Assembly (NCBI RefSeq): GCF_910596095.1 | Contig: NC_056554.1 | Span: forward strand, 1,798,001-1,862,000 | Source of the DNA: Thunnus maccoyii | Lineage: Eukaryota > Chordata > Actinopteri > Scombriformes > Scombridae | Direction of reading: 5' to 3' | Length of the DNA: 64,000 bases | Part shown: positions 8,409 through 61,610 of the stretch, in pieces | How positions within the stretch are numbered: position 1 is the first letter of the stretch | Layout of the letters: each line of letters starts with the position of its first letter | The notes under the pieces: model-generated | What the model was told of the DNA's origin: nothing | Database searches by the model: none | The model's input: only the letters and a program-made list of their open reading frames with translations | Position numbers and translations under genes: made by a program

Positions 8409-8426
8409 GATACACAGAGCTTCATC

Positions 8427-9158
8427 ATGGTGAAAATTTTTATTGGCAACCTTGCCTGCAACACCACACCTGAGGAGCTGCGTGAACTCTTCGAAAAGTA
8501 TGGTAAAGTCTCAGAGTGTGACATTGTCAAAAACTATGGTTTTGTGCACATGAACAACATATCTGAAGCAGAGGAGGCCATTAAAAATCTCCACCAGCAC
8601 CAGTTGCACGGCTGGCGCATGAACGTGGAGATGAGCAAAGGGAGACCCAAGTCCACCACTAAGCTGCATGTCAGCAACTTAGGTGAAGGGGTCACCAGTG
8701 AAGTTCTGCGGGGCAAGTTTGAGGAGTTCGGCACGGTGGTGGAGTGCGATATAGTGAAGGACTTCGCCTTTGTTCACATGGAACGAATGGAGGACGCCAT
8801 GGACGCCATCAATAAGCTGGACAACACAGCCTTCAAAGGTGAACTCTTGGGCGGGGGAGAGCTAGTTGTCTTTGCTGTCCATAGATACGAATTTGGATTC
8901 TATTCTGTCGCCGTAGAGCTCTCCTGACAAATAACAGCCACTAGCTGATATTTTTCCACATAAAGAGAAAAAGAATGGCTAACCTAAGCCTTAATTGACC
9001 AGATGGACTGAAAGTAATCACTTGTAAGTTTGGCAGTGTCTCTTGTAAAACCAGTTGCAGTGTACCCGGTGAATAGGCACTGGCATAAAATCCCCTGCAC
9101 CTGGCGCTGCAGGTTATTACGCTTCGCTCAGTGATTGTCGGTCAAGTGCATTTAACGT

Positions 9159-14317: not shown

Positions 14318-14335
14318 TGAAGCGGAAGCTCCACA

Positions 14336-16549
14336 ATGGTGAAAATATTCATTGGGAACCTGTCACCAGACACTACATCCGACGAACTTCGCTCTCTCTT
14401 CTCCCAATATGGCAAGATTGCAGAATGCACTATTGTCAAGAACTTTGGCTTTGTGCACATGGATGACAAATCAGAGGCAGAAGAAGCCATTCGCAACCTC
14501 CACCATTATGAGCTGAATGGCCAGCCCATGAATGTAGAGTTGAGCCGTGGCAAGTCAAGAGGATCCACCAAACTACATGTTGGCAACATTGCCTGCACCA
14601 ACCAGGAGCTGAGGGCCAAGTTTGAAGAGTTTGGCTCTGTGGTGGAGTGTGACATAGTAAAAAACTACGCCTTTGTTCACATGGAGCGAATGGAGGATGC
14701 CATGGAGGCCATTAATCAGTTAGACAACACAGCATTTAAAGGTGAAATCTCAGGCTGGGCTTAATGGGGAGTGTACCTTATTAACATGCAGTATCAAGAA
14801 TATTTAATTCTCTTCTTGTGAATTAGTAGGTAAGTTATGGATGCACCGCAGGTAAGTATAAAGAAAGATGAAGGGATAACAGTAAGCTTAAGAGAGTAAG
14901 GCAACCCTGAATACTTATTTTAAAGCTGTTATCCGTAATGTCATTGGTTATATCCGTCTGTATGATGGACTGTTGGAAAACACAAATGGGCACCTACTGC
15001 AATTTATGATCGACTTGTCAGGTCACACCTGTTCTAGTTAATAATGCAGGAAGAGTCTGTCTGTAAGAGGAAGTAATGAATAACAGATCGTTATCTATAT
15101 TTTAACCAAATAAACTCAACTGCATAGGCCGCATATACACCAAAACGGACGTGCAAGCGGGTCTTATACTTTATGTGGTTCCTGCACACAGATGTGCTTG
15201 TTCATACGTTTGTCGGCATGGTCATAAATTTTAGACTGCACAGACAGTCTGTGTGGCCACTTGACAATATGCTCAGATGACAAAAATTTACATCCAATGA
15301 ACCCTCGTGATGTAAAGGTGTAATTAAAGTATTTTAGTGTCACACTTTTGTTAACTTGCTTCAAGTTTAATACCGGCTGATTCTGATCGCAAGTTTAGAA
15401 GCAGCCTTCTAAACAATCTTAAGATTTTTGTGGTAGCGTTAACATCATTTGAAATACGTGTTGCTGCAGAAGATAAAATGTGCGGAAAGTTACGGATTTC
15501 AGCTTTAATAACGTGTTTTTTTTTAATGCTTAAATCATAAGCCATGTCTTATTGTTATTTTTGGAGTGTAATGCTTCTTTTTAACAAACTGATGGATTGG
15601 GAGACTCTTTTATGCCAGGCAGGAAATGTCAAATTTCATATTTAGAATGAATGTAGGCACAAGTCCTTATTGAGTTTTTTCTTTTTAAGGCAAACTGATG
15701 AGCGTGAAGCTTTCGACTAGCCGCCTGCGTACTGCGCCGGGAATGGGAGACAGATCGGGTTGTTATCGTTGCGGGCAGGAAGGCCACTGGTCCAAAGAAT
15801 GCCCTCTAGACCAAAACGGCTACCACAGAAACGGCTCAGAGCCACAGTCTGATGGATACGATGCCTTGAGATTTGGCGGGCGAGGTCGCAACAGGGGTTA
15901 TCATCCGGGCTTCAGTGGCGATCCGGATTATGGTGGCGACTATGCTCCTGTACATGGTTTTTCCCGGGGTTCTGGTCACAGCAGCAGTGTGGTGGGGTAC
16001 AGAAGGGGTGCGGGCTACGAGAGTGCAATGAGATACGGGCCGCACCCCGGTTACGGCATAAGCGCTGTGGCTGAACATAGCATGGCTCGGATGTACGGCA
16101 GCGAGGCGGCATACAGGAGCAACGGCTCACTCTATGGCGCGGTACCAGCCTACCCGATGCGACGGTCGCCTTACGAGGAAAGAGATCCGTACGGGGTCGT
16201 GGACTACTATGAGAAGTACAGGGCCAATTCGTACGGAGGCAGTTATTTCGAGGAACGGCGCGCCGTCCCCTTGCCTGCTCCATCAACATCTTCCTCCACA
16301 GCTATAATGAGGGAACGTCTGCCCCCCTCTAGCCTTGACCCGTACGAGTGCCCTCCCCTCCCTCCTCCACCAGCCCCAGTCTCCTCATACTACGCACGTG
16401 ACCGGAGTCCGATTCGGAGAGTCCCTGCCGAGGCAGATGGATACACATATGAGCGTTCGCGCCTTTCCCCGGTGCCCACCATCCCAAGAAGCTCTACTTA
16501 TGACCATCCGCGGGATCCCGGCGCTGAGCGGGCACGATATACATACTGA
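14336..16549 (+). CDS. rbm4: RNA-binding motif protein 4, copy 2
   Basis: Two coding exons, 14336-14741 and 15690-16549, join in phase to give 421 aa ending in TGA. The order matches copy 1. RRM1 has KIFIGNL and [11 protein letters not shown]2 has KLHVGNI and KNYAFVHM, and then comes [13 protein letters not shown]. The CCHC knuckle has ligands C160, C163, H168 and C173 ([14 protein letters not shown]). A long Tyr/Gly/Arg-rich tail follows, with [20 protein letters not shown] and [10 protein letters not shown]. The knuckle is closer to human RBM4 ([14 protein letters not shown]) than that of copy 1, and the tail is about 35 residues longer than in copy 1. Both copies split the coding region at the same codon (Lys-Gly at the end of RRM2), so they arose by tandem duplication. 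It is expected to act as an alternative-splicing and translation regulator. Retention of the last intron would stop the protein at 14762-14764. Confidence 0.95.
14742..15689 (+). other. Intron 2 of rbm4 copy 2
   Basis: The 948-nt intron runs between donor AAAG|GTGAAA and acceptor TTTTTAAG. It contains no recognised gene or strong repeat. The homologous intron in copy 1 is 419 nt. Confidence 0.7.
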
Positions 16550-53302: not shown

Positions 53303-56300
53303 ATGGACTGCAGTACTTACGGTAAGACGACTCTTAGTGTGTTAGTTAGTATTAGTTATAAGCAGATATAAGGACAATTCACTAGTATTAATGATTCATA
53401 ACAGTATAATAAAGCTGTAATCATATTACACATTTTAACAAATCCTCACTGTGATACTATTTACTATAAAGTATAGCAGTTATCAATAAGAAATCTCATA
53501 GTACCTATCTACAAAAAATATGCACAATTTGAAATATTAATTGTCTCGGTAATATTAAAACTGTAACAAGAGATGTGCACCACGAATGTCTTTACAAATA
53601 CTGTTTTTTTTGTTTTTGTTTTTGTTTTAAAGAACAGAGCGATATGCAAATGTACGCAAATTTTATAAAATTGCAGGAAACTACATATGTATATATATGA
53701 ACAATGTGTGTCAGATAAAAGATGAGATGAGTTACAAGTGAGCAAAAAACATACAGAAGTGCTGCTACACACCAATCACATTAAAGAATGCTTCATATGT
53801 TAGACATATATGATTACAACTGTTATATTATACTGTCAGTTATCCATCATCTGTTTATACATTAGTCTTCACAGGAAGTCAACAACTGCATAAATAAACA
53901 CTTAAAAATGCCAATATATCTGTTTTTAATTTGCAGTTTTAAATGCTAAACAGGAAATGTTTGTAATGATTTTCTATATAATCTAAAGATTTATGATACA
54001 GTGCAAGTTTAAATGAATTATCACATATTTGATTGATATTTATAGCTGTCACAGAGCTGGACACCTTGGAGGTTCCTCCTCTCACCCCAACTAGTAAGGA
54101 GGTCCTCAGCCAGGCGGTGAGGGCCAGTTTCTCTGGCTTCACACAGGAGAGGGTCAGTCAGCACTTTCCACAAGGTACAACCTGAGCCACCTGCAGAATA
54201 CTTTAGTCTTCAATAAAGAAGTGAAAGCTTCTATTAAGAGAGATTGAGAGTGCTTGGTACATTAAGAGTTGTAGACTGATGCATATTTGCATATCTAGAT
54301 CCTACCTTGTGGTCTGAGTGGGAGGTGAACCACTGGCTGGAATGGTGTCAGACTGAGTTTGGTCTTCACTGCCTGGGTTCAGACCTGAAGGGCCTGCAGG
54401 GTAGTGAGCTGTGTGGCCTGAACCGAGAGGCTTTCCTGGGCCTGATGTCTGACTGCACTGCTGGAGAGATCCTGTGGGAACATCTGGAGATCATGAGAAG
54501 AGGTAAAGTAAGAAATAAAAGCCCTGAGGCACCACAAACTCACTCTTTCAATACCAGATTTTTGCATGAATTATAATTTACAACTGTTTTTTTCAATATG
54601 AGTCTTTAGGTCATCAAAGCCTAATATCACAATTTTCTAAAAATTACATAAAATACAGTAGCCATATACAAATGATGTTCATAAATTTACTTCCATAGTG
54701 TGGGGAGATTTGACAGATTTTTAAAAGAGTGGTCAAAATTGAAGAGCTGAGGCTGAGACATCCTGACTTTTTTCCCATTATGGGTTAAACTCAAAAACTA
54801 CCAGATCCTACAATCCCCATAATGCAACTCAGTTGCATATTTTTATTAGACCCTCCCTACCTGGTAAATGCGCACATCTTTCAAACTCCACACCTCCAGT
54901 AACACAGGCTTTCTGTCATAAATTTGAAAGCTGAGATCACCTTGATGACATCACTAGGGTTATTTTTTTCAAACCTGCTCCAGAGTCACAGAAGATATTG
55001 CACTAGTGTTTTTACAGACTGAGTGGTATTTATAGACTATGTATGAAGGAAATCTTTTTTTTAAAAAGTCATTTTCTTTTAACATTCAACTCACATCAAC
55101 ATGAACATACACATAGAACTGAATGATATAATTCAAAAACTACATCTGAATATATTGCCATATCTATAACCATAAATGTAACAATAAAAATATCTATTGA
55201 TACATCTGTAAAATTACAGTGATATTCAGACTATTATTAAAAACTGTGGTAAGAGTACATTTATGCTGGTAATTTGATCAATTCATTTTAATGTGCATCA
55301 CTGAGTTTAGCTGCTCCGCTACATCTCTGCTGGTCTGCCTTGGAGAGATGTTTGTGTCTTTCATTTTTGTCAAACTTCTTGTCATTTGAATTTGATTCTC
55401 CAGACAATGAATATGACTGCAGTTCTGCATTGCCCACAGTACCATCTTACTGCCAGCCTCTAATCAACAAAGGTAATAATGTCTGTTTCTTCTCCAGCCT
55501 ACCACTTTCTCATGTAAATGACCACATTGTCTGTTGTTATAATATTATCCTCATAAAGTTAACAGTTCTATTGTCTATGTTCCCCCAGAGAACCACTCAG
55601 ACTATGTTCAGGAGCATTCAGTCAAGCATGGCTACCATGTTCAGTATCATCCCACTGAGAGGACAGACCTCCATACTCTGGAACCTGTGACTCTACAACA
55701 TCAAGACTACTATCTAGTCAAAACAGAAGACCCCAGCAGGAACATGGCCTCCGTCCCTCTGCTGCAGGAAGCAGGAGGAAATGGAGGTGAGAGGATTATG
55801 CTCAAAACAGAGTTTATACATGTTAAAGTTACACACAAGACACATTACTGTGGTGACTGAAGGCATCATTCTGCTTTGGTCTAGAACTTGTTACTGTTTG
55901 GTGTGAGTCATGTTTCAGGAGATAAATGACATTTCTGCCACCACATCAATTCAATGGAAGTGAGTGGAATTTTTTTAAAGTAAAATTAGATCTGAAAACA
56001 GAATAGCGGTATTTTGTTCCAGAAACAATGTCCTCAACAGTTTTCATTGGGACTACAAAGAAATAGCTTGTAGTGACAAACTCACAGAATTAGTTTTGCC
56101 TCTTTAGCTAATTGTTTTGGTTTTACGACCCTCAAAGCCATGTTTTATTGGTCTCTTTTTTAGCTGTTTTCAGTGAAAAAGCTCTAATAACCTGCTCAGC
56201 AACAAAAGGCAGACAGACATAGCTTGCAACTAGCTGGTGTACATAGTGGAGCATTTAGCAGCTTAAGACAGATATAATTCTTGGGAGTTGGTGGAGACCA

Positions 56301-58437
56301 AAACATTGTGAAAAGAAGAGTGAATATTGCTAAATACTAAAGCTGCTCTGTGTTTGCTGGATGTAAATATAGGCAACAGTGCTAACATATTTACCATAGC
56401 TAGCCCCCAATAAATAAATAAATAAATAAGTACACCTGCCTTATTCCCGTGTCTCTACTGTTCTGTACTTCCAGAGACAGACTCAGAAGTGGAGATGTCT
56501 CACAGTGACGATTCCGACATTGTGAGCTCTAAATCGTGGACTGGTCCACTCCATCATATAGAGCCAGTGATGGAAGAGACCATGTCACTGGATGTTTTCA
56601 CTTTACCACAACCACACAGAAGCTTCAAAGAATATGTAGGAAACAAGACAGACCTAAGCAGAGCTGTGATACCAGCAGCCATCCTCGCCGGTTACACTGG
56701 TGAGTTTTTACATCGCACATGGTTTCGTGTCAGCTTAAGATGAATCCAGCAGGTGTTCAAGCTGATTCTTCTCATCATGTTTCAATAGGAAGTGGTCCCA
56801 TTCAGCTGTGGCAGTTTCTACTGGAGCTCCTGACAGATCGCAGCTGTCAGTCATTTATAAGCTGGACAGGAGATGGGTGGGAGTTCAAGCTGACGGACCC
56901 TGATGAGGTAAATCAGATGCCTGTTGGTTTGAGCAATATGGGATGTAAAATACATTTTGGGAAATATATTTGTTGTCCATTGCACTCACAGACAAGATCA
57001 CTTTCAGATAGCTGTAGGCCTTATTTAGCCTAGCTTAGCACTGCTGGAGAAATTAACATAACTTTTAGCTCAATTCCTTTAATGCCAAAGTTTTGTTTTT
57101 TGTTTTGTTCATTATATTTAGTTTATTTAACATATGAAAATATTAACTGCTGGTTTAGCGACAGAAGTTAGCTATTTCTTCAACAACTGCTGGACACTGA
57201 CTACATCGCAAAAGTCCTGTCCTCGTAGTGAGGTTGTCAGGTTTGAACACTGCTAGCTAGCAAGAAAAAACATGAGTGAACCTGCGTTGGCGTTGTTAGA
57301 AGATGTAGGCTATGTATCTTTTAAGCTAGGCTAACATTTTCCTCTGTTTTCAGTCTTTGTTCACATGTACCTGGCCTACCAGCATGTGTCACATCCAACA
57401 AAATCCCAAATTATTTGATTAATACTTTACATTAATACATTCTCAGGAGTTGGTGGAGACCAAAACAGAGCGAAAAGGAGAGTGAATATTGTGGAATCAT
57501 GATGATATGATGATCCAAATTATGTCCAGAGTCCAAATTAATTATTAAAACCAAACTTATAATTAATAATAATAAAAAAAATAAGATAGAAAAAAATATG
57601 TAACAGCAAAATAAGTTGTTTTCACGTGAAAAGTTTGGTCTGATGTAATACACAACAGTGGAACACAGCTCATTGCTTTGAACATAATTTTGATTACTTT
57701 TTATATGAGTTGCAGACATTTTCTATATTGTGATATAGTATATATCAATATAGGAAAATATCCCTATTAATATTGTGATATTAACATGATTTCAACCTTA
57801 TCACCCAGCCCTACCACTAATAATAATATTAATAATAATAATGATGTTAAAATGACAAGGACTGCAATGATTATTTCCACTAGAGATTAATATGCTGATA
57901 ATTTTCTCAATTAATCACTTAGTCTATGAAATGTTAAATGTGAAATTTGCTTTTTTTTGTCTGACTAACTGTTCAAAAACTAAAGATACCCAATTTATAT
58001 TGAATATGACAAATAAAAGCAGAAAATCATCACATTTAAGAAACTGAAACCAGAGAGTATTTGGCACTTTTGCTTGAAAAATAAGTGAAACACTGAATTA
58101 AGTAGGAAAATAGCTGAAGATTAATTATTTATAATATCAAATCAAAACCAATTCAAAAGACACCCAGTCAAGCAATGATCCAACGCTACTGTCCTCTGGA
58201 GTTAAGGTGTAGCTTTGTCTCCAGGTAGCCCTGCTGTGGGGTCAGAGAAAGAACAAACCCAAGATGAACTATGAGAAGCTGAGCCGCGGTCTGCGCTACT
58301 ACTACGACAAGAACATCATCCGCAAGACAGCTGGCAAACGCTACGTCTACCGTTTTGTCTGCAACCTGCAAGGCCTGCTGGGATATGAGCCCAGGGAGCT
58401 GCATGCCATGTTGGACATCAGTAATAAGAGCCACTAA
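53303..58437 (+). CDS. ETS1/ETS2-like transcription factor
   Basis: Eight coding exons give 391 aa: 53303-53321, 54046-54174, 54299-54502, 55404-55472, 55589-55786, 56475-56699, 56789-56907 and 58225-58437. A MAPK-type site in PPLTPTSKE (T20) matches the ETS1 T38 context. A Pointed (SAM) domain spans about residues 30-117. A VKTE sumoylation-type motif is at 184-187. An acidic/serine segment [11 protein letters not shown] lies in the position of the ETS1 serine-rich region. The ETS DNA-binding domain covers about residues 284-372, with recognition-helix arginines R342 and R345 ([12 protein letters not shown]). The exon plan and [20 protein letters not shown] place it in the ETS1/ETS2 subfamily, but it is more diverged than ETS1 and ETS2 are from each other. 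It may be a third paralog kept in fish. It binds GGAA-core DNA in the nucleus by family inference. Confidence 0.93.
54503..55403 (+). other. Intron 3 of the ets-like gene
   Basis: The 0.9-kb intron is mostly AT-rich, with a possible repeat at about 54770-54960 (CTACAATCCCCATAATGCAA). No exon-like ORF is seen. Confidence 0.6.
56085..56330 (+). repeat. GTTGGTGGAGACC repeat family, copy 3
   Basis: Located in intron 5 of the ets-like gene. It has TTGTTTTGGTTTTACGACCC, AGCTGTTTTCAGTGAAAAAG, GGCAGACAGACATAG and GGAGTTGGTGGAGACCAAAA in the same order as copy 2. Confidence 0.65.
56908..58224 (+). other. Intron 7 of the ets-like gene, splitting the ETS domain
   Basis: The 1.3-kb intron falls after the Asp-Glu of DPDE, inside the ETS-domain coding region. 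It contains a repeat fragment at 57440-57495 (GGAGTTGGTGGAGACCAAAA) and AT-rich simple sequence near 57810-57845. No gene is seen. Confidence 0.7.
57440..57495 (+). repeat. GTTGGTGGAGACC repeat family, copy 4 (fragment)
   Basis: Only the right end remains: TCTCAGGAGTTGGTGGAGAC followed by CAAAACAGAGCGAAAAGGAG and AGTGAATATTG. Confidence 0.65.
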
Positions 58438-58438
58438 C
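58433..58438 (+). repeat. Left target-site duplication containing the stop codon
   Basis: ACTAAC here and at 59076-59081 are identical. The left copy includes TAA (58435-58437), the stop codon of the ets-like reading frame. Confidence 0.85.
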
Positions 58439-59075
58439 TGTCACATCTTGCCTGGACTTTGGGTTTTTTGGTCTTATGTTGTGTTCCGTGGGGTCTCCTG
58501 GTTTTGCACGTCTGTTCAGTCCCTCGGTTCATAAGGGTTTTCTTGTGTGATTTGGGTGGTGGGTTTTAGAGGACTGCGGCACTGGTTTGTTTGGTTGTGT
58601 GCTTGGGTTTGTGTTTTTGTGGTTGGTTTTGGATGGGTTAGTGTAGATGGCATTGAGTTTGTTTTCTGGGTTTTTGTTCTGTTTCCCTTGTGTGTTCATG
58701 TACTCCTCCACACCTGCCCTGCATTTGGACTCGTTAGCCCTGCCCTGCTGTCTTCCCCACACCTGCCCTGTGTTAGCCTCGTCAGCCCTGCCCCGCTCCC
58801 TGTGTGTCCTCAGCCTATCAGCTCCCTGTATGTTCATTCCCCTCTCGAGTTCTCCACCCATCTCCCCACCTGCACCTCATCTCCTTGTTAGTTCAGTTTC
58901 TTTAAGTTCTGGTTTTCTGTTCAGTCCTTGTTGGATCGTTTTATGTTGTTTCTTCTGCTAGTTCTGTTCAGCTCTGTTTGCCTGTCCATGACCATCCACA
59001 ATTAAAGGAGTTTTTCATCATATCTGCATTCTGGCCTCTGCGTTTGGGTCCACTCCTGCTTCCCCGAGTCTGACA
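58439..59075 (+). mobile_element. Solo LTR (gypsy-like) with 6-bp target duplication
   Basis: This 637-bp unit begins TGTCACATCTTGCC and ends CCGAGTCTGACA, so its termini are the inverted TGTCA...TGACA expected of an LTR. It is flanked by identical ACTAAC at 58433-58438 and 59076-59081. An ATTAAA signal at 59001-59006 followed by a T-rich stretch fits an LTR polyadenylation region, in the same orientation as the ets-like gene. There is no internal retroelement coding region, so this is a solo LTR left by recombination. Assignment to gypsy rather than another LTR class is by general resemblance only. Reading frames inside it are not genes. Confidence 0.85.
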
Positions 59076-59081
59076 ACTAAC
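59076..59081 (+). repeat. Right target-site duplication of the solo LTR
   Basis: ACTAAC directly follows the LTR terminus TGACA. The original 3' UTR of the ets-like gene resumes at about 59082; a canonical AATAAA is at 59245-59250. Confidence 0.85.
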
Positions 59082-61610
59082 GACCTCAACACACACTGGC
59101 AAAAAGGAGCAAAGAGACTTTTTGATATGGGACCCTTTTACATTTTTAAAAATGACTTATGGATCTCTGCTATCTCTCTGCTAATGTCAGTTCTGAGTCT
59201 TAAAAGGTGACATGTAGCACTTTAACTTGTTGTGACTGTCAAACAATAAAACTCACAGCAAAGTCATTTATGTAATTTATTCCTCTGTGCATACGTGAGA
59301 CTGATGGGTTGGATTGTCAATATAATATACATATGATATTGACGTTTTGTAAAAAAAATTAACCATAATTGTTGGCTGTCTGTTTTCTTGTGATAGGCCA
59401 TTTACTACAAGCCATGTAGACAGGACTACATTACAAATCAAACTATAGTGTTAGTTTGAAATTAGCTAGGCATGGCTGGTGCACTAATCAATAGAAATGA
59501 CGTGTCCCAGGTCAAGGGAAGCAATGCCAGGAACGGACGTCTTTCATTTTTTGCAAGGGAAGACTGGCTCGCTACCGCTAGCTACTACTTGTAGCTTTTC
59601 CTGCACTGGCTTAAGCTAGCAGGAAGAGGTGGAGCTAGGTGATGTTTCATCTCGCTGGGCTGATTTTTATATCTCGTGAATGTGGTCATGTTGTACATTT
59701 TGCATTTATACCTGGTTGAGACCTGATCACAATTCAACCAGACCACATTTGGAGGCGGTCTGGCAGCTAAGAACAACAGATCACTGTCCAGTGGTTGTAC
59801 TAGAAGCTCCCACTGTGAATATGTGGCACACTATTGACTTTCAGCTGAAAAAAGATCCAAATAATTCCTTTCAGAGAGAAGCTCAGTGGATAGGATGGTA
59901 AAAGATCTTATGTTAAGACAGGGATCTAGCTTATAAGAGAATCCCTGCCAGGAGGTGTTTTAACAGAGATCAGCTGGTGACTGGACAAATGGAACCTAAT
60001 TGATGTATTCACTCTTGCTCACTGAACTCTTTCTGCCTTTCACTTCACTACATTCAGTATGTGAAGTAGGCTGTGTGTGGGGGACTGGAATAGTCAGCTC
60101 AAGCGGTCTAATTTAACATCTCCGATACCACACAAGGCTTGTCTGTGAAGATTCTCAGTCATCCAGATCACACAAGGCTTGTTAATTGATTTATTGCCTT
60201 CTAATTTCTAATCCAGCAGGGGGGTTCTGCTCCCGTGGATTTAAGAATGACTCCCTTAAGTCTGACCATGTTTTGTCTCCAGACCTGGATAATCTTCATA
60301 TAAATGCGCAAAAGAAATTATTTATTGAGGTTATGGAGATTCAAAATAGAATGCAATTTAATTTCTTGGGAAATAGGCAAGGGGTCAAAAATACTCCTAA
60401 GCTTCTAATGTTATGTATGGATTGTTCAGTAAGGAATTGTTTGGTTTAACAAGTCCTCTGCTGAATAAAAAAAAATCAACATCAAAAGCATTCCATTGTT
60501 CTGTAAAAAAAAAATAAAAAAAATTGAAAGGTGGGGTACAAAGTGTAATGATTGTATGTGTGTACTGATATATTGGGACTCGTATTTGTAAAACATTCCT
60601 TGAGCCAAGAAAAGCGATTTAAAAAATCTGTGACGTCATCACAAGCAGGCCAAGTGGGAACTTGCAGGTGGGGCCAATGGGAGAAACACTACTTCACATA
60701 TTCGTGGGCCACACAACGCGGAAGCAAACACGTTAGCTAGAAACTTTTTTTGGCGTATGTGCCAGCAATTCTTATAGGACTGAACAGGCGCCATTTTTAG
60801 TGTGGTGCCCAGCTCTTATCATATATCCATTGGTTGGCACCATCTTTTCCGTTTGGAGCCAGGACGTTCTGAATAAGGAGTGCAGGGTGTTGCCCTTCAT
60901 GGTCTGGAAACACGCCCTCAAACCTAAGCTAACAGTAGCTTACTGGGACCACCAAGCACTGCACACTTGGGCTAACATTAGCTACCTTAGTTAAACTATG
61001 CTAAGTATGAGGCAGGTATCGTTAACAAGTAACGTTAAACTTAGTAAAATATTGTGAGAACAGTCCGACTCAGTGTGAATCCCGGAGCTGGGGAAAGCTA
61101 CTATAAGTCTTCAAATCTTATTAATAGAGCAATCATTTCCAAAAAGACCACCAGCACAGTTATAAGAGAGCCTGAATTTAGCGATTGAGACCATAATGAC
61201 TCATTGAAAAAATGATTGACTTCATATTTCTAGAGAGAAGTTGATGTTTTTTGAATGGGAGTCAGTTGGAGCATATAGTAGCCGTCAGTGGCACTTTAAT
61301 GTACTTCCTCATCAACTTTAGCTACAAGCCATGGTAGTTGCCGCTTGGTTTTGGCAAAAGTGGAGCCAGACTTAACCTTTTTGCTGGACGACCATGCGTT
61401 TTTTTGCTGGATTCCTCTATGTTGGCACCCTTGCTGCGCTGTGGTTCAAATGAATGAGGGATCTGCAGTTTTTCACACAAAGTTAGAGTCAGTCTTTCTG
61501 CCATCATAGCTTCCTCCAGACTGCATCACACTGCTTCCTATGTCTTTTTCCAAGAACTGTGTAGCTTTTGTTTGTCTTTGTAGTCTCAGTGTGACAAATT
61601 GTACAAATAG
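59082..61610. other. Displaced ets-like 3' UTR and repeat-rich intergenic DNA
   Basis: The first ~180 bp are probably the original 3' UTR, ending near the AATAAA at 59245-59250. Beyond that, no protein with a recognisable domain is encoded on either strand. Blocks such as CCATTGGTTGGCACCATCTT followed by TTCCGTTTGGAGCCAGGA (about 60827-60865) resemble dispersed fish repeats. The short direct duplication CACACAAGGCTTGT occurs at about 60129 and 60169. Confidence 0.45.

Follow-up and report, generated by a model that had tools for sequence, protein, structure and literature searches.

Do the 637 bp that follow the stop codon of an ETS-family gene in Thunnus maccoyii represent the long terminal repeat (LTR) of a retroelement, and if so, what has the insertion done to the 3' untranslated region (UTR) of that gene? 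We examined this question in a stretch of 64,000 nucleotides, here called the window (assembly GCF_910596095.1, NC_056554.1, positions 1,798,001-1,862,000, forward strand); the gene and insertion features described below lie on its plus strand. The 3' portion of the gene was modeled from 54046 onward as seven exons with AG/GT borders (54046-54174, 54299-54502, 55404-55472, 55589-55786, 56475-56699, 56789-56907, and 58225-58437), which form a single open frame of 384 amino acids ending at TAA 58435-58437. The frame is thus open up to the stop, as an earlier sequence-only reading of this DNA had held. Pfam matches of the product (Ets, 2.7e-35; SAM_PNT, 2.1e-19) and its best PDB sequence matches (Protein C-ets-1, 3mfk, E 3.2e-74; C-ets-2, 4bqa, 5.1e-70) identify the host gene as C-ets-1/2-like. 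It is possibly a divergent third ETS1/2-type gene, and no paper title on a third teleost Ets1/Ets2-type paralog was present among the matches listed.

The neighbors of the ETS gene include frames that, from their translations, we take to be rbm4-like, SF1-like, and glycogen-phosphorylase-like. Two frames in the window (8409-8927 and 14321-14764) are 72.6% alike in DNA and presumably resemble RNA-recognition-motif proteins; they are perhaps neighboring rbm4 duplicates. Among four downstream frames compared with Pfam, one scored above the cut-off, with the SLX1 C-terminal domain (L048:8601-9314, ∼13.5 kb beyond the LTR). One difference from C-ets-1 is in the ETS domain encoded by the last exon, which has VALLWGQ in place of VARRWGK; together with the neighbors of the gene, it points to the possible third ETS1/2-type gene mentioned above.

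The last exon ends AGC CAC TAA C, and a single host base, the C at 58438, separates the stop from the LTR. The LTR itself (TGTCACAT...GTCTGACA, 58439-59075; ends TGTCA...TGACA in the window copy) is bordered on the left by the target-site duplication ACTAAC (58433-58438), which holds the stop codon of the gene, and on the right by a second ACTAAC (59076-59081), downstream of which the native 3' UTR restarts and leads to a canonical AATAAA at 59245-59250. The sequence-only reading had given these positions, together with an ATTAAA at 59001 inside the LTR, and all of them are exact to the base. It had put the displacement of the native UTR at 637 bp, which is wrong; the native UTR and its AATAAA were moved by 643 bp, because the insertion consists of the LTR plus one duplication. 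Equal 6-bp flanks spaced 637 bp apart occurred at 18 of the 63,280 positions tested in the 64-kb window, and addition of TG..CA ends left one of the 63,280, the ETS-gene LTR. A search for a second LTR copy within the window found only short, weak matches, an Rfam scan of the whole window at gathering scores returned zero matches, and the exact start of the LTR had zero matches in viral_contigs.

The sequence-only reading had proposed a search for relatives of the LTR elsewhere in the genome. In the genome to which the window belongs (782 Mb on 54 contigs; at least 42 matches), we scored the best 40 of 1040 candidates and found 34 end-to-end LTR matches, i.e., the window copy and 33 others, with partial matches at the remaining 6 (L030, L031, L032, L038, L039, and L040). 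Because other genome copies have the same two ends, the boundaries of the LTR are those of the family, and orientation was set by the side on which interiors begin. To obtain independent sites from the 34 copies, we merged the LTR pairs L009/L011 and L033/L034, removed L024-L029 (which have the flanks of L022), and removed L005, L016, L017, and L019 (element sequence on one side), leaving 22 sites, of which 20 are solo and 2 are paired. Exact flank duplications were present at 20 of these 22, 5 bp long at 12 sites and 6 bp at 8, and the 6-bp duplication at the ETS gene is therefore ordinary for the family. The other two sites (L035 and L036) have near matches of 4/5 and 5/6 bases. LTR pairs surround interiors at L009/L011 (C12, duplication AAAGG) and at L033/L034 (C3, duplication GATATG).

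Based on the 33 end-to-end copies and the exact flank duplications, we conclude that 58439-59075 is a true solo LTR; its sense orientation to the ETS gene, also part of the sequence-only reading, is borne out by the side on which interiors start. The alternative that these 637 bp are ordinary conserved 3' UTR with no retroelement involved has nothing in its favor in these data. It is refuted by the dozens of dispersed copies, which have sharp ends and duplicated target sites, and we give it virtually no credence.

Seven of the LTR copies (L022 and L024-L029, on C14, C9 [three places, both contig ends included; two of the seven copies], C41, C29, C15, and C7) are identical in both flanks except for one base, and they therefore represent one insertion copied inside larger duplicated blocks. 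Several of them lie within ∼0.1 Mb of a contig end, and the blocks are perhaps subtelomeric. The sequence TTCAG, which is outside the duplication count, flanks L017 on the right and also borders a partial LTR start in L045 on the left.

The layout of the LTR bears on how the element may have been primed. The usual tRNA primer site starts with TGG, whereas the bases just inside the LTR, as read in the first internal positions of interior-bearing copies, do not open with TGG. GAACGATCCAACCAG was sought in nine loci where element sequence follows the LTR and was present in 9/9, directly after the LTR; these loci represent five independent insertions (C16, C9, C15, C12, and C3). GAACGATCCAACCAG is complementary to 11 nt of the LTR at 58930-58940 (GTTGGATCGTT, the putative start of R), a stretch kept in 29 of the 34 copies and variable in five. 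Among 5000 random sequences matched to the LTR in dinucleotide frequencies, 6 reached a complement of at least 11 nt. The match begins 29 bp past the first base of a TATA-like TTTAAG (58901-58906, kept in 33/34 copies) and 71 bp before ATTAAA (59001-59006), so position 58930 appears to fit the place expected for an RNA start.

These features suggest that the family is self-priming in the manner of Tf1/Sushi elements, the case against tRNA priming covering the first internal bases. The borders of U3, R, and U5 would follow from the same layout, with a putative T-rich U3 (40.5% T) at 58439-58929, delimited by its composition and, on the right, by the complement at 58930. The layout resembles that of Tf1/Sushi self-priming, and it marks ATTAAA, which has the same sense as the ETS gene and is retained by 29 of 31 copies viewed (of 34), as a poly(A) signal belonging to the family itself.

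Where interior frames could be read, they open with MDPAETNCFQ (with a single change in one copy), and the C16 copy differs. The frame stops after 26 codons in 2/5 reads, and the longer interiors examined pass into tandem repeats rich in GC. Members of the Tf1/Sushi group carry gag-pol with Gypsy-type reverse transcriptase and integrase, plus a chromodomain in Sushi, and one published paper reportedly covers vertebrate members. We found no pol gene or chromodomain in the interiors examined, and a 154-amino-acid interior piece had no Pfam match at E 0.1. Because no pol gene was found, the family's class rests on LTR features, and we do not file it under the Tf1/Sushi group. The family looks non-autonomous, with a minisatellite-rich interior; no autonomous partner was seen among the LTR copies scored (best 40 of 1040 candidates).

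Long GC-rich tandem repeats, with periods of, e.g., 42, 39, and 48, were noted at L043, L044, and L047, where they are open in several frames. At L041 (C16:30209500-30213500), the LTR is followed by the first 15 bases of the interior and then by other sequence. The minus strand there carries pol-type retroelement frames, one with LLAYVDDL, which we take to be a pol-type motif. This arrangement suggests a chimera or a nested element.

The age of the window insertion was considered from the divergence among copies. Young members of the family exist, given that the paired LTRs are 0.94% apart in one element and 0.67% in another, and these could speak for an insertion that arose recently and still segregates within the species. 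Against this, in a tree of 34 copies that were sampled nonrandomly as the best matching, and in which gene conversion or sampling could distort ages, the longest terminal branch (0.0216) belongs to the window copy, which also, with 7, ranks second to L005 (8) in private substitutions. The length of that branch indicates that the insertion is probably not recent. We regard a recent, polymorphic insertion as improbable; the window insertion is probably older than the two paired elements and is likely fixed.

Starting from the observed anatomy, family, duplication, and open frame of the insertion, we propose the following history. An element would have integrated in sense by a 6-bp staggered cut spanning the stop codon of the ETS1/2-like gene. 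Fill-in of the staggered cut would have duplicated the stop, which each ACTAAC therefore contains, and the left ACTAAC still terminates the reading frame. The interior was presumably lost later through LTR-LTR recombination; the single LTR that remains makes up, one host base beyond the stop, the opening 637 bp of the 3' UTR. That a self-priming, Tf1/Sushi-like, probably non-autonomous element inserted in sense across the ETS stop and was later reduced to a solo LTR is, taken as a whole, very probable. The position beside the stop needs no special cause, because selection presumably purges insertions into coding sequence and chance would place some of very many insertions at stops.

The consequences for the transcript are less certain. 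The sequence-only reading had proposed that the LTR could replace the stability and microRNA sites of the mRNA or create a new 3' end. "Replace" is too strong, since the native UTR with its AATAAA persists farther downstream, and only transcripts ending inside the LTR would lack it. An LTR-derived 3' end of ETS transcripts is plausible from the arrangement of signals. Some share of the transcripts would be cut ∼10 to 30 nt past ATTAAA 59001, giving a UTR of ∼580 to 600 nt without the native part, and others would continue across the LTR as far as the native AATAAA, giving a UTR of ∼830 nt. We would expect a mixture of both 3' ends, with the protein sequence unaffected. ATTTA occurs zero times in the LTR and twice in 209 native bases, and TGTANATA occurs in neither, counts that are too small for an argument.

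A stronger claim would be that transcripts of the gene now end mainly or exclusively at ATTAAA, most of them without the native UTR. This signal is the first one encountered, is in sense orientation, and is largely kept in the family, and the best G/T-rich stretch beyond it (10 of 12 nt) starts 38 nt on. The native signal, however, persists as a canonical hexamer, and the G/T content beyond it is no poorer, with a best stretch of 11 of 12 nt, though 61 nt on. On balance, we consider this takeover rather unlikely and continue to favor a mixture of 3' ends. More doubtful still is the combined proposal that a divergent third ETS1/2-type gene now relies on the LTR for both its functional 3' end and its main UTR, that regulation through the native UTR is gone from most transcripts, and that this exaptation was enabled by a stop-preserving duplication. 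Interest in the site would rise if the LTR has indeed taken over the 3' end of the gene.

As proximal 3' UTR, the retroelement remnant cleanly illustrates a common, known kind of event. The locus offers a natural insertion, defined to the base, in which a transposable element became 3' UTR and left the protein untouched, and it is useful for testing poly(A) use from an LTR in a fish transcription factor gene. What is new concerns the family, whose internal bases do not open with TGG and are complementary to its own LTR, and which looks like a self-priming, minisatellite-filled, and non-autonomous element. The family may draw specialists more than the ETS site itself.

Comparison with known systems places the family near, but apart from, two described groups. 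Sushi chromoviruses (Ty3/Gypsy, Metaviridae) in fish have LTR ends TGTYANR / CNTNACA (PMC3601003). The LTRs are alike in that the 5' end TGTCACA fits TGTYANR, U3 is T rich, and a poly(A) hexamer lies near the 3' end; they are unlike in that the 3' end TCTGACA of the window copy meets 6/7 positions of CNTNACA, the hexamer here is ATTAAA versus AATAAA, and the interiors examined yielded no pol or chromodomain. Fission yeast provides the precedent for self-priming, which was demonstrated first in Tf1 and is proposed for Tj1 (PMC4600332). The family resembles both in having a candidate primer site complementary to the putative RNA 5' end of the element itself, and Tj1, with a 5-bp target duplication (PMC4600332), compares with 5 or 6 bp here. 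The fish family differs in its host, in interiors that, where read, are minisatellite rich versus gag-pol, and in an RNA start that here is predicted. Transposable elements that donate poly(A) signals to host genes are well known (PMC3554611). Compared with these, the LTR signal described here is a candidate, and the distinguishing feature is that the target duplication itself holds the stop codon of the host gene.
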